From: Kineococcus aurantiacus | Lineage (GTDB): Bacteria > Actinomycetota > Actinomycetes > Actinomycetales > Kineococcaceae | NCBI RefSeq assembly: GCF_013409345.1 | Contig: NZ_JACCBB010000001.1 | Span: forward strand, 1,054,001 to 1,118,000 | Reading direction: 5' to 3' | DNA: 64,000 nucleotides | In this document: in pieces, positions 8,817 through 64,000 of the stretch | Numbering within the stretch: position 1 is the first letter of the stretch | Layout: every line of letters begins with the position of its first letter | Made by a program: the position numbers and the translations under genes | The notes under the pieces: generated by a model | The model's input: the letters and a program-made list of their open reading frames with translations, nothing else | What the model was told of the DNA's origin: nothing | Database searches by the model: none

Positions 8817-9955
8817 TGTCCTCCACCCGCTCCACCACCCGCCTCTCCCGCCGGACGGTCCTGGCCGCCGGCACGCTGTCCGCCGCCGGTCTGGGCGCGG
8901 CCGCCTGCGCCCCGCCGCCCTCGTACCAGCTCGTCAGCCCCGCCTCCTCCGTCGAGACGACCTCCGGTCTGGTCGTCGACGGCGAGCTCATCGCCGACGC
9001 CGCCCTGTTCGCGGCGGCGAAGGCCGAGGGCCGGGTCAGCCTCTACACCGGCTACGTCGAGAACAGCGAGAAGGAGGTCGTCCGCGCCTTCACCGCCGAC
9101 ACCGGCATAGCGGTCGACGTGATCCGCCTGGTGCCGAACCGGCTCCTGGAACGCGTCCTCAGCGAGCAGGGCGCCGGCCGGTTGCGGGCCGACGTCGTCC
9201 GCTCCTCCGACCCCGCCAACGTCCTGCGGATGCAGGAGGCCGGTGTGTTCGCCCCGCACGTCGTCCCCGGGTACGACGAGCTGGACGACACCGTCCGGTA
9301 CGCCGACGGCAGCTACTACCGCTGCTTCGACCCGGCCTTCACGTTCGGGTGCAACACCGCCCTGGTGGAGGAGGACGAGCGCCCCCGCAGCTGGCACGAC
9401 CTCGTCGACCCGAGGTGGAAGGACCGCCTCGGCATCACCCAGGCCGGCGCCGGCGGCAGTTCGCTGTCGCTCACGAGGTTCCAGCTGGAGGTCCTGGGCC
9501 CGGACTGGCTGGAGGCGCTGGCCGCGAACAGCCCGCGCATCTTCGACAGCTCCGGGGCCATGCAGGAGAGCCTGGCCCGCGGGGAGATCCACGCCTCGAC
9601 GGCGGTCGTGTCGAGCCTGAACATCGCGATGGCCAAGAACGCGCCCGTGCAGTTCGTCGTCCCCGAGGAGGGGTTCGCGCTCTACGACTACTTCGCGGGC
9701 GTGGCCGCCGCGGCCCCGCACCCCAGCGCCGCCCAGGTGTTCCTCAACTGGAACATGAGCCGTCGCGGCGGCGCCGTGTTCGCCGACATCGGCGAGTACT
9801 CGACCAACCCCGACGCCGACCCGCCCACGGTGCACGGCACCACGCTGCCGACGGTCGCCACCGGCCTGCCGCACCGGCCCGACCCCCGGGACCTGGCCGC
9901 GCACCAGGCCTCGGACCAGGAGCTGTGGAACGCCGCCTTCGGCTACGTCGGCTGA
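8816..9955 (+). CDS. Tat-exported lipoprotein, ABC substrate-binding protein
   Basis: A 379-residue extracellular solute-binding protein of the FbpA/AfuA/PotD fold. The leader has a twin-arginine motif (SRRTVLAAG, R12-R13) and a lipobox ending in C31 (GLGAAAC), so it is expected to be folded before export and then lipid-anchored. The mature part begins with a YQLVSP spacer. It contains VSLYTGYVENSEKEV, a segment like the first strand and hinge of FbpA-type receptors. The ligand cannot be read from sequence. FbpA homologues bind iron or organic acids, and the PrpF neighbour favours an organic acid or its metal complex. The 3' end overlaps the convergent methyltransferase gene by 13 bases. Confidence 0.88.
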   Translation: MSSTRSTTRLSRRTVLAAGTLSAAGLGAAACAPPPSYQLVSPASSVETTSGLVVDGELIADAALFAAAKAEGRVSLYTGYVENSEKEVVRAFTADTGIAVDVIRLVPNRLLERVLSEQGAGRLRADVVRSSDPANVLRMQEAGVFAPHVVPGYDELDDTVRYADGSYYRCFDPAFTFGCNTALVEEDERPRSWHDLVDPRWKDRLGITQAGAGGSSLSLTRFQLEVLGPDWLEALAANSPRIFDSSGAMQESLARGEIHASTAVVSSLNIAMAKNAPVQFVVPEEGFALYDYFAGVAAAAPHPSAAQVFLNWNMSRRGGAVFADIGEYSTNPDADPPTVHGTTLPTVATGLPHRPDPRDLAAHQASDQELWNAAFGYVG

Positions 9956-52028: not shown

Positions 52029-53099
52029 ATGACGGCGACGGTGCACAGCTCCCCCTTCGGCCGGACCCGCCGCGGGGAACCGGTGGAACGCTGGGAGCTG
52101 CGGCTGCCCTCGGGCGCGAGCGCGGCCGTGCTGACCCGCGGGGCGACGCTGCAGCAGGTCCGCGTGCCGGACGCCGCGGGGGCCCTGGGCGACGCGGTCG
52201 TCGCGCTGCCGGACGTCGCGGCCTACGAGAACGCCTCCGGTTACCCCGGGGCGGTCGTCGGCCGCGTCGCGAACCGCGTCGCGGGCGGGCGGTTCACCCT
52301 CGACGGGGTCGAGCACCGGGTGCCGCTCAACGACGGCGTCAACGCGCTGCACGGCGGGGTGGAGGGTTTCGACCAGCGCGTGTGGTCGGCCTCGGAGGTG
52401 GACGTCGACGGGGTCCCGGGGGTCCGGTTCGCCCTGCGCTCCCCCGACGGCGACATGGGGTTCCCCGGCACGCTCGAGGCGGCCGTCACGTACTCGCTGC
52501 GCGCGGAGGGCTCCGCGGTGGTCCTGCGCCTGGACCACTCGGCGACGACCGACGCCCCCACCCCGGTGAACCTCACGAACCACGCGTACTTCGCCCTCGA
52601 CGGGGCCGGGTCCGTGGAGGACCACGTCGTGCGGCTGGCCGCCTCCCGGTACCTGCCGGTCGACGCGGACCTCATCCCCACCGGGGAGCTCGCCGCGACG
52701 GCCGGCACCCCGTTCGACTTCTCGGCCCCCACCCGGATCGGCGACCGGCTGCGCGAGGCCGACGAGCAGCTGCTGCGGGCCGGCGGCTACGACCACTGCC
52801 TGGTGCTGGACGGGCCGGGGATGCTGCGGGAGGTCGGCTCGGTCACCGGGCCCCGCTCGGGGCGGACCGTCACGGTGCGCACGGACCTGCCGGGTCTGCA
52901 GCTGTACTCCGGCAACTTCCTCGACGGGTCCTGGCGGACCGTGGAGGGCCGGCCCGTCCGCCAGGGCGACGCCCTGTGCCTGGAGACGCAGCTGCTGCCC
53001 GACGCGGTGAACCAGCCGTCCTTCGCGGAGCTGGGCGACTCGGTGCTGCGGCCGGGCGGGGAGTTCCGCACGACGACGGAGTACGTGTTCTCCGCCTGA
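52029..53099 (+). CDS. Aldose 1-epimerase (GalM/YihR-like)
   Basis: A 356-residue mutarotase interconverting alpha and beta anomers of aldoses such as galactose or glucose. Active-site segments include NRVAGGRFTLDG, VNALHGGVEGFDQRVW (His), VNLTNHAYFALDG (catalytic His) and LETQLLPDAVNQPSF (catalytic Glu). ATG 52029 fixes the start; there is no clear ribosome-binding site. It is read alone after ung, and a hairpin follows. No Leloir-pathway genes are nearby. Confidence 0.93.
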   Translation: MTATVHSSPFGRTRRGEPVERWELRLPSGASAAVLTRGATLQQVRVPDAAGALGDAVVALPDVAAYENASGYPGAVVGRVANRVAGGRFTLDGVEHRVPLNDGVNALHGGVEGFDQRVWSASEVDVDGVPGVRFALRSPDGDMGFPGTLEAAVTYSLRAEGSAVVLRLDHSATTDAPTPVNLTNHAYFALDGAGSVEDHVVRLAASRYLPVDADLIPTGELAATAGTPFDFSAPTRIGDRLREADEQLLRAGGYDHCLVLDGPGMLREVGSVTGPRSGRTVTVRTDLPGLQLYSGNFLDGSWRTVEGRPVRQGDALCLETQLLPDAVNQPSFAELGDSVLRPGGEFRTTTEYVFSA

Positions 53100-53127
53100 G
53101 CCCCGGCGCGCCCCGGTGGCAGCACGA

Positions 53128-53156
53128 CGCCCGCGCCCCCCTGGGGGACGCGGGCG
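53128..53156. terminator. GC-rich hairpin between converging genes
   Basis: CGCCCGCG (53128-53135) pairs with CGCGGGCG (53149-53156). CCCCC/GGGGG in the interior extend the stem with a small bulge. It lies between the converging epimerase and SDR genes. Confidence 0.6.
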
Positions 53157-53174
53157 CGCGGGCGGGGCGGGGCC

Positions 53175-53936
53175 TCAGTTGATGTGCTTGCCGCCGTCGA
53201 CCTGGTAGCTGACGCCGTTGACGAAACCGGCCTCCTCGGACAGCAGGAACGCGACCACCGCGGCGATGTCGCCCGGGGTGCCGACGCGGCCCACGGGGAT
53301 GCCCTCCGACATCTGCGCCTTGCGCTCGTCGGTGAGCTTGCCGCCCATGATGTCGGTGTCGATCGGCCCGGGCAGGATCGCGTTGGCGGTGATGCCGTGC
53401 GGACCCAGCTCGCGCGCCGCGCCGCGGGTCAGGCCCAGGACGGCGGCCTTGGCCGCGGCGTAGGCGGTCTTGGAGAACGTCCCGCCGCCGTCGACGGCGG
53501 TGATGGAGGAGGTGTTGACGATGCGCCCCACCCCGACCTCGACCATCCGGCGCGCGGCGGCCTGGACCATGAGCAGCGACCCGGTGGCGTTGACGGCCAT
53601 CGTGCGGTCCCACTCGGCGAGGGTGATCTCGAGCAGGGGCGTCGGGTTGGCGATCCCGGCGAGGTTCACCAGGCCCACGACGGGCGGCAGGGCGGTGTCG
53701 AACTCGGCGAACGCCGCCGCCACCGAGTCCGGGGAGGAGATGTCGGTGGTGACGCCGTGGACGTCGGCCCCGGCCTCGCGCAGCTCCTGCGAGATCTCCG
53801 CCACGCCGTCGGCGGAGATGTCGACGAGGCCCAGGCTCCAGCCGTCCCGCGCCAGGCGGCGGGCGACGACCCGGCCGATGCCTCGCGGGGCGCCGACCCC
53901 GGTGACGACGGCGGTGCGGCGGGCGGGGAACTCCAT
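53175..53936 (-). CDS. SDR-family oxidoreductase
   Basis: A 253-residue classical SDR. Cofactor motif TGVGAPRGIGRVVA is slightly extended, then LVNLAGIANPTP (a NNAG variant), NTSSITAVDGGG with the catalytic Ser, YAAAKAAVLG (YxxxK) and PGPIDTDIMGG. It most likely oxidises a hydroxy acid or sugar acid with NAD(P). ATG 53936 has AGGAGA upstream. It is 41 bases downstream of an MFS acid transporter and shares its operon, so the transported compound is probably its substrate or precursor. Confidence 0.9.
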   Translation of the reverse strand: MEFPARRTAVVTGVGAPRGIGRVVARRLARDGWSLGLVDISADGVAEISQELREAGADVHGVTTDISSPDSVAAAFAEFDTALPPVVGLVNLAGIANPTPLLEITLAEWDRTMAVNATGSLLMVQAAARRMVEVGVGRIVNTSSITAVDGGGTFSKTAYAAAKAAVLGLTRGAARELGPHGITANAILPGPIDTDIMGGKLTDERKAQMSEGIPVGRVGTPGDIAAVVAFLLSEEAGFVNGVSYQVDGGKHIN

Positions 53937-53977
53937 GCTGGTCTCCTGGGGTGCGGGCGGGTGCGGGCGGTGGGGTG

Positions 53978-55315
53978 TCAGCGGGCGGCCGCGGCGGGGC
54001 GGGTCTCGTCCTGCGGGGCGGTGCTCATGAGCTTGGTGCCCAGCAGCAGCAGCGCGCCGAGCACGGCGATCCCGCCGAGGACGAACAGGCCGGCGGTGGT
54101 GGAGTCGAACGTCTCCTCGGCCCAGACGCGGATGTTGGGGGCGATGAAGCCGCCGAGGTTGCCGAGGCCGTTGATGAGGCCGAACCCGGCGGCCAGCGCG
54201 GCACCGCTGAGGTAGCGCGTCGGCAGGGTCCAGAACAGCGGCTGGCAGGTGACGAAGCCGATGGCGGCCACGCACAGGGCCACGATGGCGAGCACGGCGT
54301 TGCCGGCCACGGCCGAGACGGCGATCCCGGCGCCGGACAGGACGAGCAGCGCCGCGCCGACCTCGCGGTGGCGGCGGTGGCGGTCGACGATGCGGGGCAC
54401 GACCGCGATGGTGACCAGGGCGCAGGCCCACGGGATGGAGGTCAGCAGACCCACCGTGAACCCGACCTCGCGGCCGGTGATGGCCGAGACCTGGGTGGGC
54501 AGGAAGAACGTGAGCCCGTAGACGGCGGCCTGGATGCACAGGCAGACGAGGCAGAAGTACAGGACGCGGGGGTTGAGCAGCGCCTTGCCCCAGCCCAGGT
54601 GGCCGCCGGTCTCGCCGCGGGCGGCGTCGTCGGCGGCGAGGCGGTCCGCGAGCGCGGCCTTCTCCTCGGCCGGCATCCACCGGGCCTTCTCGGGGCGGTC
54701 GGTGAGGACGAACACGGCGACGACGCCGACGACGACGGCGAACAGGCCCTCGACCATGAACAGCCACTGGTACCCGGCCAGGCCCGCGAGCCCGTCCATC
54801 TCCAGCAGCCCGCCGGACAGGGGCCCGCCGACGATGTTGGCCAGGGGCAGGCCCATCTGGAACAGCCCGGTGGCGAAGGCGCGGCGGCTCTCGGGGAACC
54901 AGTAGGTGAGGTAGAGCAGGACGCCGGGGAAGAACCCGGCCTCGGCCACGCCGAGCAGGAACCGCAGGACGTAGAACATCGTCTCGCCCTGGACGAACAT
55001 GAAGGCCGTGGCGATGAGGCCCCAGGTGACCATGATCCGGGCCATCCACCAGCGGGCGCCGACCTTGTGCATGATCAGGTTGCTGGGCACCTCGAAGACG
55101 GCGTAGCCCACGAAGAACAGCCCGGCGCCGAAGGCGTAGGCGGCGGCCGACAGGCCGATGCTGACCTCGAGCTCCTCCTTGGCGAACCCGACGTTGCTGC
55201 GGTCGAGGAACGCGATGACGTACATCAGCAGCAGGAACGGGATGAGCCGCTTGGCCGTGCGGCGGACGGCGGAGTCGACGAGGCGGTCGGCTTCCGGCGG
55301 GGCGGGGTTGCTCAC
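53978..55315 (-). CDS. MFS transporter, anion:cation symporter (hexuronate/tartrate-like)
   Basis: A 445-residue major-facilitator protein with twelve hydrophobic segments. It shows the ACS-family signature around helix 1 (LLMYVIAFLDRSNVGFAKEE) and GVAEAGFFPGVLLYLTYWFP in helix 4. Relatives (GudP, ExuT, DgoT, TtuB) import glucarate, galacturonate, galactonate or tartrate by proton symport. GTG 55315 has GGAGAG before it. A CCAATAGGATATTGG palindrome ~85 bases upstream and a GntR gene further upstream point to induction by the imported acid. Confidence 0.92.
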   Translation of the reverse strand: MSNPAPPEADRLVDSAVRRTAKRLIPFLLLMYVIAFLDRSNVGFAKEELEVSIGLSAAAYAFGAGLFFVGYAVFEVPSNLIMHKVGARWWMARIMVTWGLIATAFMFVQGETMFYVLRFLLGVAEAGFFPGVLLYLTYWFPESRRAFATGLFQMGLPLANIVGGPLSGGLLEMDGLAGLAGYQWLFMVEGLFAVVVGVVAVFVLTDRPEKARWMPAEEKAALADRLAADDAARGETGGHLGWGKALLNPRVLYFCLVCLCIQAAVYGLTFFLPTQVSAITGREVGFTVGLLTSIPWACALVTIAVVPRIVDRHRRHREVGAALLVLSGAGIAVSAVAGNAVLAIVALCVAAIGFVTCQPLFWTLPTRYLSGAALAAGFGLINGLGNLGGFIAPNIRVWAEETFDSTTAGLFVLGGIAVLGALLLLGTKLMSTAPQDETRPAAAAR

Positions 55316-55399
55316 GTGCTCTCCAGACAACGTCGTCGTTCACAGAGACCGTCCGCGTGGACGGGAGGGCGGCTGGCGTCGCCGCGGGCGCAACCTAAC

Positions 55400-55416
55400 A
55401 TCCAATAGGATATTGG
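55400..55416. promoter_or_regulatory. AT-rich palindrome, probable GntR operator of the MFS/SDR operon
   Basis: CCAATA-GGA-TATTGG (55402-55416) is a perfect 6-3-6 palindrome overlapping a second one, ATCCAATAGGAT (55400-55411). It is strikingly AT-rich for this genome and lies between the GntR gene and the transporter start. It probably binds the adjacent FCD regulator. Confidence 0.6.
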
Positions 55417-55478
55417 CGTCAAGGCGACCTGATCCGGCCCCGGCCCCACCGGGCGGGCCGGCGGCTCCGGCGGGGAAC

Positions 55479-56186
55479 TCAGGCGGGGGTGTCGAGCCCC
55501 ACCGCGGCGCGGTCCTCCAGGGCCCGGCGCCGCACCGCCTCCAGGTGCTCGCGCATGCGCGCGGCCGCCGCCGCCCCGTCCCGCGCGCGCAGCGCGTCCA
55601 CGACGGCCCCGTGCTCGGTGATGGCCGGCTGCGCGTCGGTCACCCCGCGCTGGACGAGCCGGAGCCGGAAGCGCTGCAGCTGGCCGTTCAGGCCCTCGAA
55701 GGCGTCGGCCAGGAAGCGGTTGCCGCCGGCGTGGTTGACGAGCCGGTGGAACTCGTTGTCGGCCCGGTGGTAGTCCTGGTAGTCGAGGAACGAGGGCCCC
55801 TTGGGGGCCCGCGCCATGCGCTCCATCGTCCCGGCCAGCCGGTCCAGCAGGTCGTCCCCGGCGTGCGCGGCCGCCGCGGAGACGTTGTGGCACTCCAGGA
55901 GCACGCGCGCGTCCATCAGCTGGTCGACCTCGCTGCGCGAGAGCAGGCCCGCCACCCGGTAGCCGCGCATGGCGACCCGCTCCACCAGGCCCGTCGACTC
56001 GATCCGCGCCATCGCCTCGCGCACCGGGGTCGGGGACACCCCCAGCAGCCGGGCCAGGCCGTCGATGCTCAGCGACTCCCCCGGCTCGGCGTTGCCGTCC
56101 ATGAGCCAGGCCAGCAGCGAGGCGTGCACCGAGTCGGCGAGCGACGCGCGCGCGGGGGTGGACGGCGGCGCGGGGCGGGCTGGCAC
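55479..56186 (-). CDS. GntR-family (FCD) transcriptional regulator
   Basis: A 235-residue regulator. The HTH lies in SIDGLARLLGVSPTPVREAMARIESTGLVE, and the C-terminal FCD domain has metal-site histidines in HRADNEFHRLVNHAGGN and EHGAVVDALRARDGAA. It should repress the MFS/SDR operon transcribed in the same direction 163 bases downstream. GTG 56186 lies six bases after TACGAT, another leaderless-type start. Its own operator may be elsewhere, since the palindrome found lies downstream. Confidence 0.92.
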   Translation of the reverse strand: MPARPAPPSTPARASLADSVHASLLAWLMDGNAEPGESLSIDGLARLLGVSPTPVREAMARIESTGLVERVAMRGYRVAGLLSRSEVDQLMDARVLLECHNVSAAAAHAGDDLLDRLAGTMERMARAPKGPSFLDYQDYHRADNEFHRLVNHAGGNRFLADAFEGLNGQLQRFRLRLVQRGVTDAQPAITEHGAVVDALRARDGAAAAARMREHLEAVRRRALEDRAAVGLDTPA

Positions 56187-56227
56187 CGCGCGATCGTACC
56201 CACCGACCCCGTGCGGGCCCGGACCGC

Positions 56228-57115
56228 TCAGAACGACTCGAGCAGCGCCGCCACCGACGGCCGCTCGTCGTCGGCCAGGCCGGCCAGCAGCAGGCGCAGC
56301 GGTTCGAGGTCGCGCAGCTCGACGTAGGCCAGGTCGTCGGAGCGGTGCGCCGCGGCGACGGCCTCGGACGTGATGGCCATCGCCCGGCCGGTCGCCACGA
56401 CCGCCAGCATCTCCTCCACCGTCCGCGCGGCCGGCCCCACCGCCCGCGGCGCGGCCCCCGACGGGCGCGGGTCGACCAGCCACACCTCCCGGTCGCTGCC
56501 GGCGTCGACGATCGGCTCGTCGTCGAGGTCGGCGATGGACAGGGACGGCTCCCGGGCCAGCCGGTGGCCGCTGGCGAAGACGGCCACGCGCCGCACCCGC
56601 GCCACGTCGACGGCCCGCACCCGCGGGTCGGCCCCGGCCCCGGCCGGGACCTGGAGGAAGACGACGTCCACGGTGCCGTCGACGAGGTCGGCGACCTCCT
56701 GCCCCCACCGCACGTGCCGCAGCACGACGTCGAGCCCGGGGCTCTCCTGGGCGTCGGCCACCAGCCGCGTGGAGACCCAGCGCGGCGTCGAGGTGCCGAT
56801 GCCGACGGTCAGCCGCTCCCGCTCCCCCGAGGCCGCGACGCGCCGGGCCCGCACCAGGGCCCGGTCGAGCAGCTCGGTGATGCGCCCGGCGTCGGCGAGC
56901 AGCGCCTGCCCCGCGGGGGTCAGCGCCGAGCCCTCGCGCGCGACCCCGCGGGCGTCGCGCACCACGAGGCGGCCGCCGACGAGGGACTCCAGCCGGGCCA
57001 CGGCCTGGCTCAGCGCCGGCTGCGACATCTGCAGCGAGGCGGCGGCGGTCGTGAAGCTGCGGTCGCGCGCGACGGCCTGGAGGTAGCGCAGCGACCTCAC
57101 GTCGAGCTCGCCCAC
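56228..57115 (-). CDS. LysR-family transcriptional regulator
   Basis: A 295-residue LysR regulator with an N-terminal HTH (FTTAAASLQMSQPALSQAVARLE) and a standard effector domain. It is divergent from the amidohydrolase/monooxygenase/permease operon. A T-N11-A palindrome, CATCCACACCGTGGATG, lies between them. GTG 57115 is my choice; GTG 57139 lies inside the palindrome and GTG 57100 is also possible. The effector is probably a nitrogen heterocycle or its breakdown product (inference from the operon). Confidence 0.9.
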   Translation of the reverse strand: MGELDVRSLRYLQAVARDRSFTTAAASLQMSQPALSQAVARLESLVGGRLVVRDARGVAREGSALTPAGQALLADAGRITELLDRALVRARRVAASGERERLTVGIGTSTPRWVSTRLVADAQESPGLDVVLRHVRWGQEVADLVDGTVDVVFLQVPAGAGADPRVRAVDVARVRRVAVFASGHRLAREPSLSIADLDDEPIVDAGSDREVWLVDPRPSGAAPRAVGPAARTVEEMLAVVATGRAMAITSEAVAAAHRSDDLAYVELRDLEPLRLLLAGLADDERPSVAALLESF

Positions 57116-57132
57116 GCCCCGCCCGTTGCGCC

Positions 57133-57149
57133 CATCCACACCGTGGATG
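57133..57149. promoter_or_regulatory. LysR-type T-N11-A box
   Basis: CATCCAC-ACC-GTGGATG is a perfect 7-3-7 palindrome containing T-N11-A (57135-57147). It lies in the 90-base gap between the divergent LysR gene and the amidohydrolase operon, the expected recognition site. Confidence 0.65.
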
Positions 57150-57205
57150 CTCTCAGAGGGGACTCCTGTGCGACAGGGAGGGCCGGTGCTGCCTACGTTG
57201 ACGGC

Positions 57206-58213
57206 GTGCGTCCCCTCGCCCAGCTGCCCAAGGCCCACGTGCACGCGCACCTCGACGGTTCGTACCCGCGCCGGGCCGTGCTGGACCTGGCCCGGCGCCG
57301 GGGGGTGCAGGTCGACCTGCCCGTGCGCCCGGGCGCGGCCGGGGGCCCGGACGGCTGGCGCGACGTCTGGGAGTTCTTCGACGCCTACGGCCGGGTGCCG
57401 GCGCTGGTGTCCGACCTGGACGACCTGGCGGGGCTGTGCGAGGCCCTCGTCGAGCAGGAGGCCGCCGAGGGCGTCCTCTACTTCGAGCCCGCCGTCGAGC
57501 CGCAGCTGTACGCCCCCCGGCTGGGCACGCTGCGCGACGTGACGCGCGTCGTCCTGGACGCCCTGACCACCGCGGGCCGCCGGCACGGCGTCGAGGTGGG
57601 GGCCCTGGTCACCGTCAACACCGACCAGGACGAGCCCGTCGCGGCGCAGCTGGCCGCGCTCGCCGCCGAGTTCGCCGGGGCCGGCGTCACCGCGTTCGGG
57701 ACGGCGGGCTTCGTCGAGCCCTCCGGGCTGGAGCGGTTCGCCGCGTGCGCCGCGACCGCCCGGGCCGCGGGGCTGCCGGTGGTCGCGCACGCGGGCCAGA
57801 CGGGCGGGTGGGAGTGCGTCGCCGAGGCCGTCGACGTCCTGGGGGCCACCCGCATCGCGCACGGCGTCCGCTCGGTGGAGGACCCGGCGTTCGTGCAGCG
57901 GCTCGTCGAGACCGGCGTCGTGCTGGACGTCGCGCCGGTCTCCAACGTCGCCCTGGGGATCGTGCCGGACCTGGCCTCGCACCCGGCGCCGCAGCTGCAC
58001 GCCGCCGGCGTCGGGGTGACCCTCAACGCCGACGACCAGCTGTGGTTCGGCCGCGGCGTGACCGACCAGTACGCCGTGGCCCGGCACGTGTGGGGGCTGC
58101 CCGACACCGAGCTCGCCGCGCTGGCCGGCAACGGGCTGCGGGTGGAGGGGGTGAGCGCGGCGACGCGGCAGCGGTTCGGCACCGCCCTGGCCGCCTGGCT
58201 GGCGGCGCCGTGA
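57206..58213 (+). CDS. Adenosine-deaminase-like amidohydrolase with Glu-to-Gln change in the active site
   Basis: A 335-residue member of the adenosine/AMP deaminase clan. The metal ligands H13 and H15 are in KAHVHAHLDGS, the third at H195 (VVAHAGQTGGWE), then H219 (TRIAHGVRSVED) and D276/D277 (TLNADDQLWF). In deaminases the H195 motif reads HAGE, where Glu protonates the purine ring; here it is HAGQ. DP after the Asp pair is also changed to DQ. The chemistry may therefore differ from purine deamination. GTG 57206 sits six bases after TACGTT. It is coupled to the next gene by a GTGA overlap. Confidence 0.85.
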   Translation: MRPLAQLPKAHVHAHLDGSYPRRAVLDLARRRGVQVDLPVRPGAAGGPDGWRDVWEFFDAYGRVPALVSDLDDLAGLCEALVEQEAAEGVLYFEPAVEPQLYAPRLGTLRDVTRVVLDALTTAGRRHGVEVGALVTVNTDQDEPVAAQLAALAAEFAGAGVTAFGTAGFVEPSGLERFAACAATARAAGLPVVAHAGQTGGWECVAEAVDVLGATRIAHGVRSVEDPAFVQRLVETGVVLDVAPVSNVALGIVPDLASHPAPQLHAAGVGVTLNADDQLWFGRGVTDQYAVARHVWGLPDTELAALAGNGLRVEGVSAATRQRFGTALAAWLAAP

Positions 58214-59595
58214 GCGACCCGCCCCGGCCGCTGCTGCTGTCCGCGTTCGAGGTCAGCGGCCCGAACCTGACCAGCCAGGGCCTGTGGGCGCACCCCGAGC
58301 AGGAGACGCTGCGCTACAAGGACCTCGACCACTGGCTGCGCCTGGCGACCCTCCTGGAGGAGGGGGGTTTCGACGTCCTCTTCCTCGCCGACTCCCCCGG
58401 CTACCCCGTGCTGGGCGGCCGCACGCCGGACGTCGTGTTCGAGCAGGCCGTCGAGATGCCGACGAACGACCCGCTGCTGCTGGTCCCGGCGATGGCGACG
58501 GTGACGCGGCGGCTGGGCTTCGCCGTGACGTCCTCGACGACGTTCGAGGGCCCCTACCCCAACGCGCGCCGCTTCGCGACGCTGGACCACCTCACGCGCG
58601 GGCGCATCGGCTGGAACGTGGTGACGACGAGCTCACCGGTGGTCAGCGACCTGCACGGCCGCGAGCGGCTGCCCCCGCACGACGTGCGCTACGACGTCGC
58701 CGACGAGCACCTGGAGCTGAGCTACCGGCTGTTCGAGGGCGGCTGGGAGGACGGTGCGGTGCTGGCCGACAAGGCCGCCCGCCGGTACGCCGACCCCGCC
58801 CGCGTCCACCCCGTGCACCACGACGGGCGCTGGTTCACCTCGCACGGCTACTTCAAGGTCGAGCCGTCCCCGCAGCGCACGCCGGTCCTCTTCCAGGCCG
58901 GGTCCTCCGCGCGGGGCCGGGAGTTCGCCGCCACCCACGCCGAGGTCGTGTTCCTGCAGGGCCGCGACGCGGGCACCCTGCACGCCCAGGTGCTGGACCT
59001 GCGGGCCCGGGCCGCCGCCCACGGGCGCGACCCGTCCTCGCTGCGGACGCTGGCCGGGCTGACCGTCGTCGTCGGCCGCGACCGCGACCACGCCCGGCGC
59101 CGCCTGGAGGAGTACCTGTCGTGGGTCGACGAGGACGCCGCCCGCGCCTACTTCGCCTCCATGACGGGGATCGACCTCGCCGCGCTGGACCCCGCGGGCC
59201 GCTTCGCGGACCTGCGCACCGAGGGCGGGCGCACGCAGGTCGAGCGCTACGCCGGGGAGACGGTGGCCCGGGCGCGGGCCGACTTCCTGCGGTTCGGGAT
59301 GCGCGAGTTCGTCCTGACCGGCTCCCCGGTGGACGTCGCCGACCAGGTCGAGCAGCTCGCCGCGCGGACCGGCGTCGACGGGTTCAACCTCACCCCGTTC
59401 GTCGTGCCCGGCTCCTACGCGGAGTTCTGCGAGCACGTCGTGCCCGAGCTGCGCCGGCGCGGTCTGGCGCGTGAGCCCGGCAGCGTCCCGGCAGGCTCTA
59501 CGCTGCGGGAAGCGATCTTCGGTGCGGGCCGCCGCCGGCTGCCCGCCGACCACCCGGCGGCCCGGTTCCGCCACGTCCCCGAGGAGCAGGCGTGA
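58210..59595 (+). CDS. FMN-dependent LLM monooxygenase (NtaA/SnaA/DszA family)
   Basis: A 461-residue bacterial-luciferase-like monooxygenase. Family landmarks are WAHPEQETLRYKDLDHW, GFDVLFLADSP, TSSTTFEGPYPNARRFATLDHLT, GRIGWNVVTTSSP and YFKVEPSPQRTPVLFQAGSS. Relatives use FMNH2 from a separate reductase to open or oxidise chelators, sulfones or heterocycles. No flavin reductase gene is adjacent. It overlaps both its neighbours by GTGA, so the three proteins likely form one catabolic unit for an imported nitrogen compound. Confidence 0.92.
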   Translation: MSDPPRPLLLSAFEVSGPNLTSQGLWAHPEQETLRYKDLDHWLRLATLLEEGGFDVLFLADSPGYPVLGGRTPDVVFEQAVEMPTNDPLLLVPAMATVTRRLGFAVTSSTTFEGPYPNARRFATLDHLTRGRIGWNVVTTSSPVVSDLHGRERLPPHDVRYDVADEHLELSYRLFEGGWEDGAVLADKAARRYADPARVHPVHHDGRWFTSHGYFKVEPSPQRTPVLFQAGSSARGREFAATHAEVVFLQGRDAGTLHAQVLDLRARAAAHGRDPSSLRTLAGLTVVVGRDRDHARRRLEEYLSWVDEDAARAYFASMTGIDLAALDPAGRFADLRTEGGRTQVERYAGETVARARADFLRFGMREFVLTGSPVDVADQVEQLAARTGVDGFNLTPFVVPGSYAEFCEHVVPELRRRGLAREPGSVPAGSTLREAIFGAGRRRLPADHPAARFRHVPEEQA

Positions 59596-61103
59596 GCGAG
59601 GTCCCCACGACACCCCGGACGCGCGTCGGCGGTGTCGACGTCGAGCTGAACGGCGTCAACGCCGTCAGCGAGGCCGAACGGCACGGCCGGCCCCGGGACC
59701 TGTTCTGGCCGTGGTTCGCCGCCAACGTCTCCGTCCTGGCCGTCAGCTACGGCTCCTTCGTGCTGGGTTTCGGCATCTCCTTCTGGCAGGCGACGCTCGT
59801 CTCGGTGGCCGGTGTCGTCGTGTCCTACGTCGTCGTCGGGCTCGTCGCCATCGCCGGCAAGCGCGGGTCGGCGCCGACGATGACGTTGTCGCGCGCCGCC
59901 TTCGGGGTGGACGGGAACCGGCTGCCCTCGCTGGTGTCGTGGCTGCTGACGCTGGGCTGGGAGACGTCCCTGGCCGCCGTGGCCGTCCTGGCCACCGCCA
60001 CCGTCCTGGGCCGGCTCGGCGCCGGCGGCGGCACGGGCACCAAGCTCGTCGCCCTCGTGATCGTCGTCGGGCTCATCGTCCTGGGCGGCACGCTGGGGTT
60101 CCGGGTCATCATGCGCATGCAGCGCTGGATCACCGTGGTCACCGCCGTCCTGACGGTGCTGTACATCGCCTTCGCGGCCGGCTCGGTCGACTGGGGGACG
60201 GTCTCGGCGATCCCGGCCGGCGACACCGCGGCCGTCGTGGGCGCGTTCACCATGGTCATGACGGGGTTCGGGCTGGGCTGGGCCAACGCCGCGGCCGACT
60301 ACTCCCGCTACCTGCCGCGGGACGCCTCCAGCGGCGGGGTGGTGCTGTGGACGACGCTGGGGTCCTCGCTGGGGCCGGCGGTGCTGCTGGTCTTCGGGGC
60401 GCTCGTCGTGGGCTCGCAGCCGGACCTGAGCGCGCGCGTGGCGGCCGACCCGGTGGGGGCGCTGACCGACATCCTGCCGACGTGGTTCCTCGTGCCGTTC
60501 GCGGTCGTGGCCGTCCTGGGCCTGGTCGGCGGGGCGGTCATGGACATCTACTCCTCGGGGCTGGCCCTGCTCAACGTGGGCCTGCGGGTGCCCCGGCCGG
60601 TGGCGGTGCTCGTCGACGCGTGCCTCATGGTCGCCGGCGCGATCTACATCGCGTTCTTCTCGGTGGACTTCCTCACCCCGTTCCAGGGGTTCCTCATCAC
60701 CCTGGGCGTGCCGATCGCGGCGTGGGCCGGCATCTTCCTGGCCGACCTCGCGACGCGGCGCGCCGGCTACGCCGAGGACGAGCTGCTCGACGCGCGGGGC
60801 CGCTACGGGTCGGTGCGCTGGCTGCCGGTCCTGACGATGGCCGGGGCGACGGCGATCGGCTGGGGGCTGGTGTCGAACGCCAACGCCTCGTGGCTGGCCT
60901 GGCAGGGGTACTTCTTCGAGCCGCTGGGGCTGGCGACGTGGGTGCCGCCGTCGGGGCAGGACGCGGGGTACTGGGACGGCGACTGGGGGTACGCGGGCCT
61001 GGGCGTGCTGCTGGCCTTCGCCCTCGGCTTCGTCGTCGTGGCCGTGTTCGGCCGGGGCGCCGTCCGCGCCCAGGAGTCGCGGTCGCACGACTCCCGGGCG
61101 TGA
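59592..61103 (+). CDS. NCS1-family permease (cytosine/purine/allantoin type)
   Basis: A 503-residue membrane protein with about twelve hydrophobic segments. NCS1 features are FWPWFAANVSVLAVSYGSF, RAAFGVDGNRLPSLVSWLLTLGWE and TGFGLGWANAAADYSRYLP. CodB/PucI/FurD relatives import cytosine, uracil, allantoin or hydantoins with Na+ or H+. It is the last gene of the operon and should bring in its substrate. GTG 59592 overlaps the monooxygenase stop. The OsmC gene converges four bases after its stop. Confidence 0.93.
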   Translation: MSEVPTTPRTRVGGVDVELNGVNAVSEAERHGRPRDLFWPWFAANVSVLAVSYGSFVLGFGISFWQATLVSVAGVVVSYVVVGLVAIAGKRGSAPTMTLSRAAFGVDGNRLPSLVSWLLTLGWETSLAAVAVLATATVLGRLGAGGGTGTKLVALVIVVGLIVLGGTLGFRVIMRMQRWITVVTAVLTVLYIAFAAGSVDWGTVSAIPAGDTAAVVGAFTMVMTGFGLGWANAAADYSRYLPRDASSGGVVLWTTLGSSLGPAVLLVFGALVVGSQPDLSARVAADPVGALTDILPTWFLVPFAVVAVLGLVGGAVMDIYSSGLALLNVGLRVPRPVAVLVDACLMVAGAIYIAFFSVDFLTPFQGFLITLGVPIAAWAGIFLADLATRRAGYAEDELLDARGRYGSVRWLPVLTMAGATAIGWGLVSNANASWLAWQGYFFEPLGLATWVPPSGQDAGYWDGDWGYAGLGVLLAFALGFVVVAVFGRGAVRAQESRSHDSRA

Positions 61104-61107
61104 GGGT

Positions 61108-61611
61108 TCAGGCGCGCTGGACGCTGACCTTCGGCGGCGTCTGCAGCGTCTGGGCGATGACGCAGTAGCGCTCGGCCAGGGAGACCATCTTGGCCTCGGT
61201 CGCCTCGTCGGCGTCGGAGGAGAAGTCGAAGGTGATGGTCACGTCGGTGATGCCGACGGGGACCTCGCGCGCGACGCCCAGGGTGCCGCGGGCGTCCCAG
61301 TGCGCGTCGACCGTGACGGAGGCGTTGCGCAGCTCCACGCCCATCGCCGTGGCGACGCTGCGCAGCGTCACCCCGGCGCAGGCCGCCACGGCCTCGCACA
61401 GCATGTCCGCCGAGCACGCCTCGGTGCCGTCACCGCCGGCGGCGGGGTGCAGCCCGGCGCGGGTGGTGCCCGCGAAGCCGTCGACCGAGACGCCGATGGA
61501 CTGGCCGTCCAGCACCGCCACGGCCCGGGCCGGGACCAGCGCCTGCGCGGGGTCCTCCCGGTAGGCGTCCTTCAACGGCTTCTGCAGGGCCCTCAGTTCG
61601 GTCGAATCCAC
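61108..61611 (-). CDS. OsmC-family peroxiredoxin-like protein
   Basis: A 167-residue OsmC/Ohr-type protein. The redox cysteines fit SADMLCEAVAACAGVTLRSVA (first Cys) and LAERYCVIAQTLQTPPKV (second). It would reduce organic hydroperoxides with a thiol cofactor. GTG 61611 is six bases after TAAGCT on its strand. It converges with the permease gene and diverges from a protein of unknown function. Confidence 0.87.
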   Translation of the reverse strand: MDSTELRALQKPLKDAYREDPAQALVPARAVAVLDGQSIGVSVDGFAGTTRAGLHPAAGGDGTEACSADMLCEAVAACAGVTLRSVATAMGVELRNASVTVDAHWDARGTLGVAREVPVGITDVTITFDFSSDADEATEAKMVSLAERYCVIAQTLQTPPKVSVQRA

Positions 61612-61667
61612 CGGGGAAGCTTAGGCCCCGCTGCCGTTGCCGTCGCAACTTCCGCGAGACTGCCCCT

Positions 61668-62282
61668 GTGAAGTGGAGCACCGCCCTGAAGACCCTGCAG
61701 GACGTCGCCGACGGCTGCGCGCACGTGGGCCGCCAGCCCGAGGGGATCGTCCGGCTGAGGGTCTTCCAGGCGTGGGTCTTCGGGACCCTGCTGGGGCCCC
61801 GGACCGACGACGTCGACGACGCCACCGGGGTCCGGGTCGCCCTCGTGACCAACGCCCGCGAGGGCGAGTGCGCCTTCGGCACCCGCCCGCCCGCGGCCGG
61901 GCACTGGCTCGCCGCCTCGGGGCTGGCGACGAGACCGGCCCAGCTGTTCTTCCGGTCCGGCGAGGTGCCCGTGTGGAACCACGTCGTCGACCGCCCGGTG
62001 CGGTTCTGGACGCGCGAGGAGGGTCTCGACGCGGACGTGCTGGAGCGGCTGCGCGCCGGGGAGGGGGCCGCGCTGCGGGGCGAGCCGCCGACGCCGGCCG
62101 AGCTGGCCGCCCGCCTGGACGCCGAGCTCGCCGTGAGCCTGGAGGCGTTGCGCCGCACGGCCTCGGAGTACGACGCGAAGCGGTGGTCACCGGGTTCGCC
62201 GGAACGGCGCGGCGACGCCCTGGCCGACGCCGCGCTGGGGTACCTGGACCTGCGGACGGCCAGGGGTACCCTCCGGCCATGA
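61668..62282 (+). CDS. Protein of unknown function
   Basis: A 204-residue soluble protein starting MKWSTALKTLQDVADGCAHV (GTG start). The middle part (VFQAWVFGTLLGP, VALVTNAREGECAFGTRPPAAGHW, PVWNHVVDRPVRFWTREEGLD) looks like a compact alpha/beta domain, and the C-terminal ~70 residues are helical. I do not recognise a family with certainty. The final codons overlap the next gene by ATGA, and that gene has its own TACCCT box inside this coding region. GAGACT lies six bases before its GTG. Confidence 0.7.
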   Translation: MKWSTALKTLQDVADGCAHVGRQPEGIVRLRVFQAWVFGTLLGPRTDDVDDATGVRVALVTNAREGECAFGTRPPAAGHWLAASGLATRPAQLFFRSGEVPVWNHVVDRPVRFWTREEGLDADVLERLRAGEGAALRGEPPTPAELAARLDAELAVSLEALRRTASEYDAKRWSPGSPERRGDALADAALGYLDLRTARGTLRP

Positions 62283-62470
62283 GCGACGAGACCGTCCCGG
62301 ACAAGCTCGCCTACCGCCTCCTCACCGGGCCCGACGACCGGTCCTTCTGCGAGAAGGTCAGCGCGGCCCTGGCCGACGGGTACGTGCTGCACGGCAGCCC
62401 GTCGGTGACGACGACCGACGGGCGCACCGTCGCCGCCCAGGCCGTCGTCCTCCCCCACGTCCTGGGCTGA
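62279..62470 (+). CDS. DUF1737 small protein
   Basis: A 63-residue protein matching DUF1737: LAYRLLTGPDDRSFCEKVSAAL then DGYVLHGSPSVTTTDGRTV and AQAVVLPHV. The domain has no known function. ATG 62279 lies six bases after TACCCT (62267-62272), so it may have its own leaderless transcript besides read-through from the upstream gene. A GC-rich hairpin (62480-62497) follows. Confidence 0.85.
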   Translation: MSDETVPDKLAYRLLTGPDDRSFCEKVSAALADGYVLHGSPSVTTTDGRTVAAQAVVLPHVLG

Positions 62471-62517
62471 GCGCCCGGCGGCCCCCGGGCGGGGGCCCGT
62501 TGCGGCACCCGTGACCG

Positions 62518-62546
62518 TTACCGCTGTCTGACAGGCGGTGTTAAGG
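62518..62546 (+). promoter_or_regulatory. Probable sigma-70-type promoter of the met operon
   Basis: TTACCG (62518-62523), a 17-base spacer and TTAAGG (62541-62546) precede the riboswitch by about eight bases. Spacing and position fit a housekeeping promoter whose transcript begins at the aptamer. Confidence 0.55.
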
Positions 62547-62554
62547 TGCGGGCA

Positions 62555-62665
62555 GGTCATGAGTGACAGCGAGAAGCCCTGGCTGGCTGTCCGGCAACCC
62601 TCCCCCGCGGCGGGGTGCCCCAGGTGAGGACCTGGCCGGACGATCCCGTCCGGCAAGCGCGGATC
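62555..62665 (+). ncRNA. SAM-IV-type riboswitch upstream of methionine importer
   Basis: The leader contains GGTCATGAGTGACAGCG, CCGGCAACCCTCC and GCGGGGTGCCCCAGGTGA, followed by a GGCAAGCGCGGATC tail. This matches, from memory, the SAM-IV class found in actinobacteria. P1 can form between CAGGTC (62553-62558) and GACCTG (62629-62634). It senses S-adenosylmethionine and should turn the metQ operon off when SAM is plentiful. About 70 bases of expression platform separate it from the metQ start. Confidence 0.88.
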
Positions 62666-62732
62666 GCCGGACGTCGTCGATCACGGCAGCTGCGAGCCGC
62701 GCGCCCGCCCGCACGACAACCGGAGTGTCCTC

Positions 62733-63680
62733 GTGTCCACCGCCCCCGCCCTGCCCGACAAGCCCAAGCGCCGCGGCCTGCTCTACGGCCTGATCGCCGC
62801 CGTCGTCGTCATCGCCGTCGTGATCGTCGCGATCGTCCTGGGCACCCGCGACGACTCCACCAGCACCTCGGCCTCCGGCGGTGAGGCCAGGACGGTGAAG
62901 ATCGGCGTCGCCGACAAGTCGCTGCCGTACTGGACGACCTACACCGAGCTCGCCGAGTCCAAGCTCGGCGTGACGGTCGAGCTGGTGAACTTCTCCGACT
63001 ACACGCTGCCGAACCCGGCGCTGTCGCAGGGGGAGCTGGACCTGAACCAGTTCCAGCACATCCAGTACCTGGCGAACTACAACGCCACCGCGGACGACGA
63101 CCTGCAGCCCATCGGCGCGACCGCCGTGTACCCGCTGCCGCTGTACTCCCTCACCGCGAAGTCCGCCGCCGAGCTGCCCGCCGACGCGCAGGTCGCGATC
63201 CCCAACGACGCCATCAACGAGGCCCGCGGCCTCCTCGTGCTGCAGCAGGCCGGCCTGGTCACGCTGAAGGACGGCGGCACCGCGTTCTCCACGACGAACG
63301 ACATCGAGTCCTCGAAGGTGAAGGTCACCACCGTCGCCGCCGACCAGACCGCCAGCGCCCTGCAGTCCGGGTCGGTCGCCGCCGCCATCGTCAACAACAA
63401 CTACGCGACCGCCGCGAAGCTGTCCGACGAGAACATCATCGTCAAGGACGACCCGACCGCCGCCGCGGCCGCGCCGTACGTCAACATCTTCGCCGCCCGC
63501 AAGGCCGACGTGGACGACGAGACCTACCTCGACCTGGCCGCGCTGTGGCACGACCCGGCCGTGCAGGAGGTCTTCCTGCAGGACAACCCCAGCGCGGTCG
63601 TGCAGGACACCCCCGCCGCGGACCTGCAGGCGGAGACGGTGAAGGTCGAGGCCGACGCGAAGGCCGCCCAGGGCAAGTGA
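62733..63680 (+). CDS. metQ: Methionine-binding protein MetQ/NlpA, membrane-anchored form
   Basis: A 315-residue NlpA-family receptor. Ligand-domain marks are VKIGVADKSLPYWTTYTELAE, LNQFQHIQYLANYN, AIPNDAINEARGLLVLQQAG and AAIVNNNYATAA. Instead of a lipobox the N-terminus has one uncleaved-looking membrane helix (LLYGLIAAVVVIAVVIVAIV) after KPKRRG. I found no cysteine in the protein, so it cannot be a lipoprotein. It would present methionine to the MetI/MetN importer. GTG 62733 lies 67 bases after the SAM riboswitch; the stop overlaps metN by GTGA. Confidence 0.92.
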   Translation: MSTAPALPDKPKRRGLLYGLIAAVVVIAVVIVAIVLGTRDDSTSTSASGGEARTVKIGVADKSLPYWTTYTELAESKLGVTVELVNFSDYTLPNPALSQGELDLNQFQHIQYLANYNATADDDLQPIGATAVYPLPLYSLTAKSAAELPADAQVAIPNDAINEARGLLVLQQAGLVTLKDGGTAFSTTNDIESSKVKVTTVAADQTASALQSGSVAAAIVNNNYATAAKLSDENIIVKDDPTAAAAAPYVNIFAARKADVDDETYLDLAALWHDPAVQEVFLQDNPSAVVQDTPAADLQAETVKVEADAKAAQGK

Positions 63681-64000
63681 CCGCGCTCATCACCCTGGAG
63701 AACGTCTCCAAGCGCTTCGACCGCCGCGACGGGTCCTCCGTCGCGGCGGTCGACGCCGTTTCGCTGGAGGTGCGGACCGGTGAGGTGCTCGCGGTCATCG
63801 GGTACTCCGGTGCCGGCAAGTCCACCCTGGTCCGGCTGCTCAACGCCCTGGAGAAGCCGACGTCGGGCAGCGTCCTCGTCGGCGGCCAGGACCTGACGAA
63901 GCTGTCCGAGGGGGAACTGCGGGCGGCCCGCTCGAAGATCGGGATGATCTTCCAGCAGTTCAACCTCTTCCGGTCCCGGACCGTCGCCGGGAACGTCGCC
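63677..64000 (+). CDS. metN: Methionine importer ATPase MetN (5' part, cut off by window end)
   Basis: The first 108 residues of an ABC ATPase. It opens TALITLENVSKRFDRRDGSS, has Walker A GYSGAGKSTL and the Q-loop MIFQQFNLFRSRTVAGNVA, all as in MetN. The remaining signature, Walker B and ACT-like regulatory domain lie outside the window. It follows metQ with a GTGA overlap and is under the same SAM-IV riboswitch; metI is expected next. Confidence 0.93.
   Translation, partial: MTALITLENVSKRFDRRDGSSVAAVDAVSLEVRTGEVLAVIGYSGAGKSTLVRLLNALEKPTSGSVLVGGQDLTKLSEGELRAARSKIGMIFQQFNLFRSRTVAGNVA

Follow-up and report, generated by a model that had tools for sequence, protein, structure and literature searches.

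An ADA-like deaminase with an altered catalytic motif, an FMN-dependent monooxygenase, and a permease in one operon of Kineococcus aurantiacus: a possible route for modified purines

Several described systems resemble parts of the locus reported here, a three-gene operon (57206–61103) in a 64,000-nucleotide stretch (the window) of the genome of Kineococcus aurantiacus (5.03 Mb, two contigs), which encodes an adenosine deaminase (ADA)-like protein, a luciferase-type FMN-dependent monooxygenase (LLM), and an NCS1-family permease. The Rut pyrimidine pathway uses an LLM together with a nucleobase permease. According to PMC12746152, the riboflavin lyase RcaE produces lumichrome and ribose from riboflavin, cutting the C–N bond between an N-heterocycle and its side chain. 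Among the ADA relatives, PMC13296781 describes the cytokinin deaminase Patl2390 (cog1816, group 3) as an example of action on N6-substituted adenines; it belongs to the same broad family as the window deaminase, and the two are likened here by that description. The same paper says that the degradation of modified purine bases is not established even for E. coli.

All the parts of the operon belong to known families, and no description of the pairing of an RcaE-clade LLM with an ADA-like deaminase, or of the deaminase clade described below, was found in searches of the open-licence literature judged by title or opening of the abstract. An earlier sequence-only reading of the window had proposed an uncharacterised pathway for an N-heterocycle at this locus. 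This proposal is supported by a conserved deaminase–LLM gene pair, by a paralogous module in a urate cluster, by another module with PucR, CDA-type deaminase, and NCS1 genes, and by the presence of a riboflavin lyase in the LLM clade. It seems quite possible, if short of probable, that the operon serves the uptake and breakdown of an N-substituted purine base or of a close purine analogue.

The HAGQ deaminase and its gene partners

The window deaminase matched PF00962 with 206.6 bits and narrowly exceeded the cut-off of the adenosine deaminase model TIGR01430 (219.4 vs 216.55 bits). It does not have the catalytic Glu of the HAGE motif. As the sequence-only reading had pointed out, HAGQ stands in its place, and the Gln was fixed in all 10 distinct orthologs (seven from Kineococcus and three from the Herbiconiux family). 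In the four orthologs aligned, the zinc-site residues H11, H13, H15, H195, H219, D276, and D277 were invariant, and a deaminase site that is intact but for an invariable exchange of Glu for Gln poses a clean mechanistic question. The catalytic Glu of adenosine deaminase donates a proton to the ring nitrogen adjacent to the carbon that reacts, so its replacement may point to a different substrate or protonation state. The altered DDP motif, also remarked on earlier, is present in the window deaminase as DDQ, but DDQ was rejected as a family feature because the three non-Kineococcus orthologs carry DDA, DDP, and DDS.

A tree of ADA-like proteins, a check proposed with the sequence-only reading, placed the HAGQ proteins in a single clade with a support of 100/100 (35 rows, nine of them HAGQ; the ortholog of genome G1124 was found later and is outside the tree). 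Glu occupied the column of the HAGQ Gln in 25 of the other 26 rows. The exception, L005 from the source genome, has HCDVDQ at the site, where the aligner places Gln, and groups with the adenine-deaminase-like part of the tree. The HAGQ clade lay apart from the adenine-deaminase-like rows (own_adenineDA, Arth_ERGS, and G033) in the tree built without the Protein Data Bank (PDB) proteins. The AlphaFold model of the deaminase (mean predicted local distance difference test, pLDDT, 88.9) had the adenine deaminase 3rys as its best Foldseek match (template modelling score, 0.86–0.88), with 3OU8 also nearest. These two proteins of the ADA (cog1816) family, AAur1117 (3RYS) and 3OU8, which we take to be Pa0148, were the best matches in both sequence and fold and have the metal-site residues in common with the window deaminase, which, unlike them, has Gln for the catalytic Glu and is 28–29% identical to them. 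A HAGQ subfamily with a defined substrate, named earlier as evidence that would count against the proposal, was found neither among these closest solved structures nor in the open-licence literature.

Of 12 genomes from the family, 11 belonging to the genus, seven (the source genome included) carried an ortholog of the HAGQ deaminase, and the other six orthologs were 78–87% identical to the window protein. A genome-contig search with the deaminase returned K. vitellinus (the contig carried by G405), an Agromyces metagenome-assembled genome, and Herbiconiux. Among 103 genomes of the Herbiconiux family, two had an ortholog (G1195, which is the Herbiconiux contig, and G1124), and in an order-wide search of 396 genomes, the seven that passed E 1e-58 were all from Kineococcus. 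These searches gave 10 distinct orthologs, with L037 (the contig of L068/L089) and L039 (the contig of L206) each counted once. The rare and patchy occurrence of the gene suggests that it has spread by horizontal transfer. A plasmid search with the deaminase gave 83 records, all with <60% identity; the annotations of the six records examined named no adjacent LLM, and several neighbouring genes in them were annotated just as hypothetical or oxidoreductase.

An LLM gene adjoined the HAGQ deaminase gene in nine of the 10 distinct orthologs. In Kineococcus, six of the seven genomes with the deaminase had the order LysR (divergent), deaminase, LLM, NCS1 permease. At all three loci from Agromyces, Herbiconiux, and G1124, the deaminase and LLM genes were followed by an aldo/keto reductase (AKR) gene and accompanied by LysR genes and genes for an NMT1-type ATP-binding cassette (ABC) transporter. 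The order in Agromyces and Herbiconiux was a divergent LysR gene followed by NMT1 binding protein, ATPase, permease, deaminase, LLM, and AKR (the ABC genes of Herbiconiux were named from their sequences), and a flavin reductase gene followed the AKR gene in Agromyces. In G1124, the NMT1 binding-protein gene lay beside the LysR gene on the opposite strand, and the remaining order was the same. The gene limits at unannotated loci came from a codon-usage caller trained on nine window genes. The operon is conserved in relatives, so the other finding named earlier as counting against the proposal, a lack of such conservation, was not borne out. The deaminase–LLM pair was kept, but the NCS1 permease, present at all seven Kineococcus loci, was replaced by the NMT1-type transporter at the three others, so the permease is outside the conserved core.

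The monooxygenase clade and its gene neighbourhoods

The window LLM matched the NtaA/DmoA-type FMN monooxygenase model TIGR03860 with 451.2 bits (cut-off, 279.7). Its score against the RutA model was far below the cut-off (39.7 vs 498.3 bits), in agreement with the earlier statement that the operon does not match the Rut pathway, which was rejected on this score. In a first tree of 27 LLM rows, all 17 deaminase-linked LLMs fell in one clade (100/97), which held one further LLM, from G398, whose short surrounding sequence showed no deaminase. A second tree of 45 rows was made by removing four distant rows and adding four PDB rows and 18 rows chosen from further loci. In this tree, a 36-row clade (100/99) contained the window LLM and RcaE (PDB 5W48, Microbacterium maritypicum), which is likewise of the TIGR03860-type family; LadA, DmoA, HcbA1, and six other LLMs were outside it. 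Residue 65 was Tyr, Phe, or Trp in all 36 rows of the clade (Tyr in the window LLM and Trp in RcaE) and in none of the nine rows outside, one of which had His. Given this clade membership and the reaction of RcaE, a similar C–N cleavage would be a natural guess for the window LLM. The clade has one characterised member in these trees, RcaE, and is tied to deaminases and transporters, which narrows the genes and substrates worth testing to a small number. The AlphaFold model of the LLM was poor (pLDDT, 65.1) and was not used.

A class-wide search with the window LLM (E 1e-125) found matches in two of 394 genomes, the source genome and G1025, and the LLM of the latter falls in the LadA/DmoA group. 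With a paralogous LLM as the query (E 1e-105), three of 394 genomes matched: the source genome, G589, which has two LLMs, and G385, with an LLM that is again in the LadA/DmoA group. In the Herbiconiux family, an LLM close to that of locus L114 was found in 33 of 299 genomes (E 1e-100). An 18-kb stretch of the source genome beyond the window (G000:C1:2313890-2331523) gave ten matches to complete or partial NtaA-type LLM genes.

The link to purines is fairly good and comes from paralogous modules. The source genome has seven ADA-like genes, three of which are within two genes of an LLM (for two of the other four, the neighbourhood was read to 1.5 kb only); the binomial P for this pairing was 5e-6 to 4e-4, a rough value that assumes 4700 genes and a distance chosen post hoc. 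One module (L040), consisting of an LLM, a deaminase, and an NMT1 ABC set, is inside a urate cluster, with genes for uricase, HIU hydrolase, OHCU decarboxylase, an XdhC-like protein (a match below the curated cut-off), allantoate amidohydrolase, a hydantoin-type racemase, and an allantoin-permease-like NCS1 protein. In another (L041), the LLM and deaminase genes occur with PucR, two CDA-type deaminases, and an NCS1 permease. Two other Kineococcus genomes, G400 and G405, have an LLM–deaminase–LLM arrangement with ABC genes. L040 also contains a gene (9047-9634) for a TetR-like protein with GSNNRMLLYYFGS, which was named by sequence and had no Pfam match at E 1e-5; similar genes recur beside many LLMs of this clade, and it is probably a regulator shared by related LLM loci.

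Thirty-nine regions around related LLMs (a closer group of 21 and group B of 18, with several regions sharing one genome or genus) were compared with 19 control regions (19 of 20 existed); the denominators include three short regions, L150, L154, and L199. ADA-like genes were found in 12 of the 21 closer regions, seven of the 18 in group B, and none of the controls (19/39 vs 0/19; one-sided Fisher P = 7e-5, uncorrected for relatedness). NMT1 binding proteins occurred in 15/21 and 3/18 (18/39 overall), cog0402 amidohydrolases in 8/21 and 1/18, nucleoside hydrolases in 3/21 and 0/18, and flavin reductases in 2/21 and 3/18, each with 0/19 among the controls. Because related genomes are not independent, the P values are too small, and hits were favoured because some query proteins were taken from the same loci (L115, L123, L131, and L136); the deaminase queries were from Kineococcus and one Sinorhizobium. 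When 21 ADA-like matches near the related LLMs were aligned, 20 covered the catalytic site, of which 19 had Glu, none had HAGQ, and one (L115) had HCDIDQ. The latter protein (L115, 13403-14434) is 54% identical to L005 (G000:C1:2579297-2580271), and the two represent a second ADA-like lineage with HCD(V/I)DQ in place of HAGE.

Two further gene sets were observed around ADA-like genes. Five of the 18 group-B regions (L115, L186, L196, L200, and L201) shared ADA-like, aldehyde dehydrogenase (ALDH), LLM, two-subunit thiamine diphosphate enzyme, and GMC oxidoreductase genes. In a distant genome of the phylum, L045 (G374:C1:630000-647000) has three ADA-like genes and two Rieske oxygenases with a vanillate O-demethylase-type (VanA) C-terminal domain, together with a TauD-type dioxygenase, a molybdopterin oxidoreductase, two amidohydrolases, a nucleoside hydrolase, and an NMT1 protein. 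The oxygenases here are of other kinds but their partners are similar, and the locus perhaps encodes a demethylase-based route for modified purines.

Proposed breakdown of a modified purine and the alternatives

In the breakdown of an N-substituted purine, the substrate would be taken up by the NCS1 permease, or by the NMT1-type transporter in relatives. Using reduced FMN and O2, the LLM would oxidise a carbon bonded to nitrogen, either in the ring or exocyclic; the C–N bond would then break, releasing the free heterocycle and an aldehyde or similar fragment. The fragment could be handled by the AKR or ALDH encoded beside some related LLMs. The HAGQ protein, as a presumed active hydrolase, would remove an amino (or alkylamino) group by hydrolysis, perhaps after the LLM step, and what is formed may enter xanthine or urate catabolism. 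In this scheme, the gene order, its conservation, the protein families, the place of the LLM in the tree, and the purine setting of the paralogous modules are observed, and the substrate class, the C–N cleavage, the sequence of steps, and the hydrolase activity are inferred. A bolder and rather doubtful extension is that this is an undescribed actinobacterial route for modified purines, such as cytokinins or RNA-derived methylated bases, in which an RcaE-clade FMN-dependent N-dealkylase acts with an ADA-fold hydrolase of a new class, in which Gln has taken the place of Glu since the substrate needs no protonation at the ring nitrogen adjoining the carbon that reacts.

Several observations weigh against the breakdown of a modified purine by these three genes. 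No purine genes adjoin the operon in 53000–64000, the stretch examined, where it stands apart from any urate/allantoin cluster, unlike its paralog L040. Although RcaE is in the same clade, it forms a long separate branch, was flagged as such, and its exact place is therefore unsure; ranked by raw score, LadA (398 bits) came first among the PDB matches of the window LLM, ahead of RcaE (359 bits). In the comparison of neighbourhoods, 20 of the 39 regions around related LLMs had no ADA-like gene, and aldehyde-handling genes are not general around these LLMs: AKR genes occurred in 1/21 closer regions, 2/18 of group B, and 2/19 controls, and ALDH genes in 0/21, 6/18, and 0/19 (6/39 vs 0/19; P = 0.08). 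By alignment, Gln also occupies the catalytic column in the separate L005 lineage, so the Glu-to-Gln change alone does not single out the proposed pathway, and a deaminase without the catalytic Glu might carry out a different reaction. Lastly, G398 (L087) retains the HAGQ deaminase and NCS1 genes, <100 bases apart, with no orthologous LLM (the best LLM in its genome is 48% identical), which suggests that these two proteins can be of use where this LLM is missing.

The arrangement in G398 is what would be expected if a diverged adenosine or adenine deaminase for ordinary purine salvage were co-transcribed by chance with a functionally unrelated monooxygenase and permease, and the TIGR01430 score just over its cut-off and the adenine deaminase fold nearest to the model are also in keeping with salvage. 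We consider it quite improbable, however, given that pairs of LLM and ADA-like genes occur in more than one lineage of the ADA tree, that ADA-like genes are found near related LLMs above the control level, that the catalytic Glu is missing in every ortholog, and that the same genome has a separate adenine-deaminase-type gene (L043). The presence of RcaE in the clade of the window LLM raises another explanation, the breakdown of a flavin, pteridine, or deazaflavin, in which the LLM would detach the side chain of a flavin-like ring in the manner of RcaE, and the pyrimidine portion of what is formed would be the target of the altered deaminase. The paralogous modules, which sit with urate, PucR, and CDA-type deaminase genes, make this unlikely, and P450 or catechol dioxygenase genes were not noticed there, though no family search was aimed at them. 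Pyrimidines, hydantoins, and thiamine precursors are also among the substrates of the NCS1 and NMT1 families, so the permease and NMT1 proteins might bring in an N-heterocycle other than a purine or flavin (a pyrimidine, hydantoin, thiamine-pyrimidine, or xenobiotic); a weak match of the permease to the CytX model (51.3 bits; cut-off, 309.85) points the same way, but the purine context of the paralogs does not, and we give such a substrate little chance.

Layout of the operon and adjacent genes

The features of the locus are listed in Table 1. Both junctions of the operon are 4-base GTGA overlaps, as the sequence-only reading had described, and the divergent LysR gene and T-N11-A box that it reported are likewise there. 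The dyad, with at most one mismatch, was found at three of the seven Kineococcus loci (the window locus included). The LysR proteins of the Kineococcus orthologs were 73–84% identical to that of the window, and those of the Agromyces and Herbiconiux loci were 39–42% identical. A hexamer preceded a GTG by approximately 6–7 nt at all seven Kineococcus loci (TACGTT in six and TAGGTT in one). Because TACGTT lies so close to the GTG start of the deaminase gene and is kept in the orthologs, the transcript is probably a leaderless mRNA.

Table 1. Coordinates of the operon and associated features in the window
Feature	Position	Strand	Remarks
ADA-like deaminase gene	57206–58213	+	335 aa, GTG start
LLM gene (NtaA/DmoA-type FMN-dependent monooxygenase)	58210–59595	+	461 aa, GTG start
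NCS1-family permease gene	59592–61103	+	503 aa, GTG start
Divergent LysR-family regulator gene	56228–57106	-	HTH_1 and LysR_substrate domains
LysR-type T-N11-A dyad ATCCAC-ACC-GTGGAT	57134–57148		perfect dyad
TACGTT, -10-like hexamer	57194–57199	+	6 nt 5' of the deaminase GTG start
HAGQ codons, deaminase residues 195–198	57788–57799	+	
DDQ codons, deaminase residues 276–278	58031–58039	+	third residue variable among orthologs
Tyr65 codon of the LLM	58402–58404	+	

The window permease matched PF02133 with 137.5 bits and scored below the cut-off of the NCS1 subfamily model TIGR00800 (83.6 vs 353.1 bits). An identity as an allantoin permease was rejected, with no such model among its matches at E 0.001; the L040 paralog does match allantoin permease models, yet below their cut-offs. 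Just upstream of the LysR gene, at 53978–56228, are genes for a major facilitator superfamily transporter (HpaX/D-galactonate-like, below the cut-offs) and a GntR/FCD regulator, which look like a separate locus.

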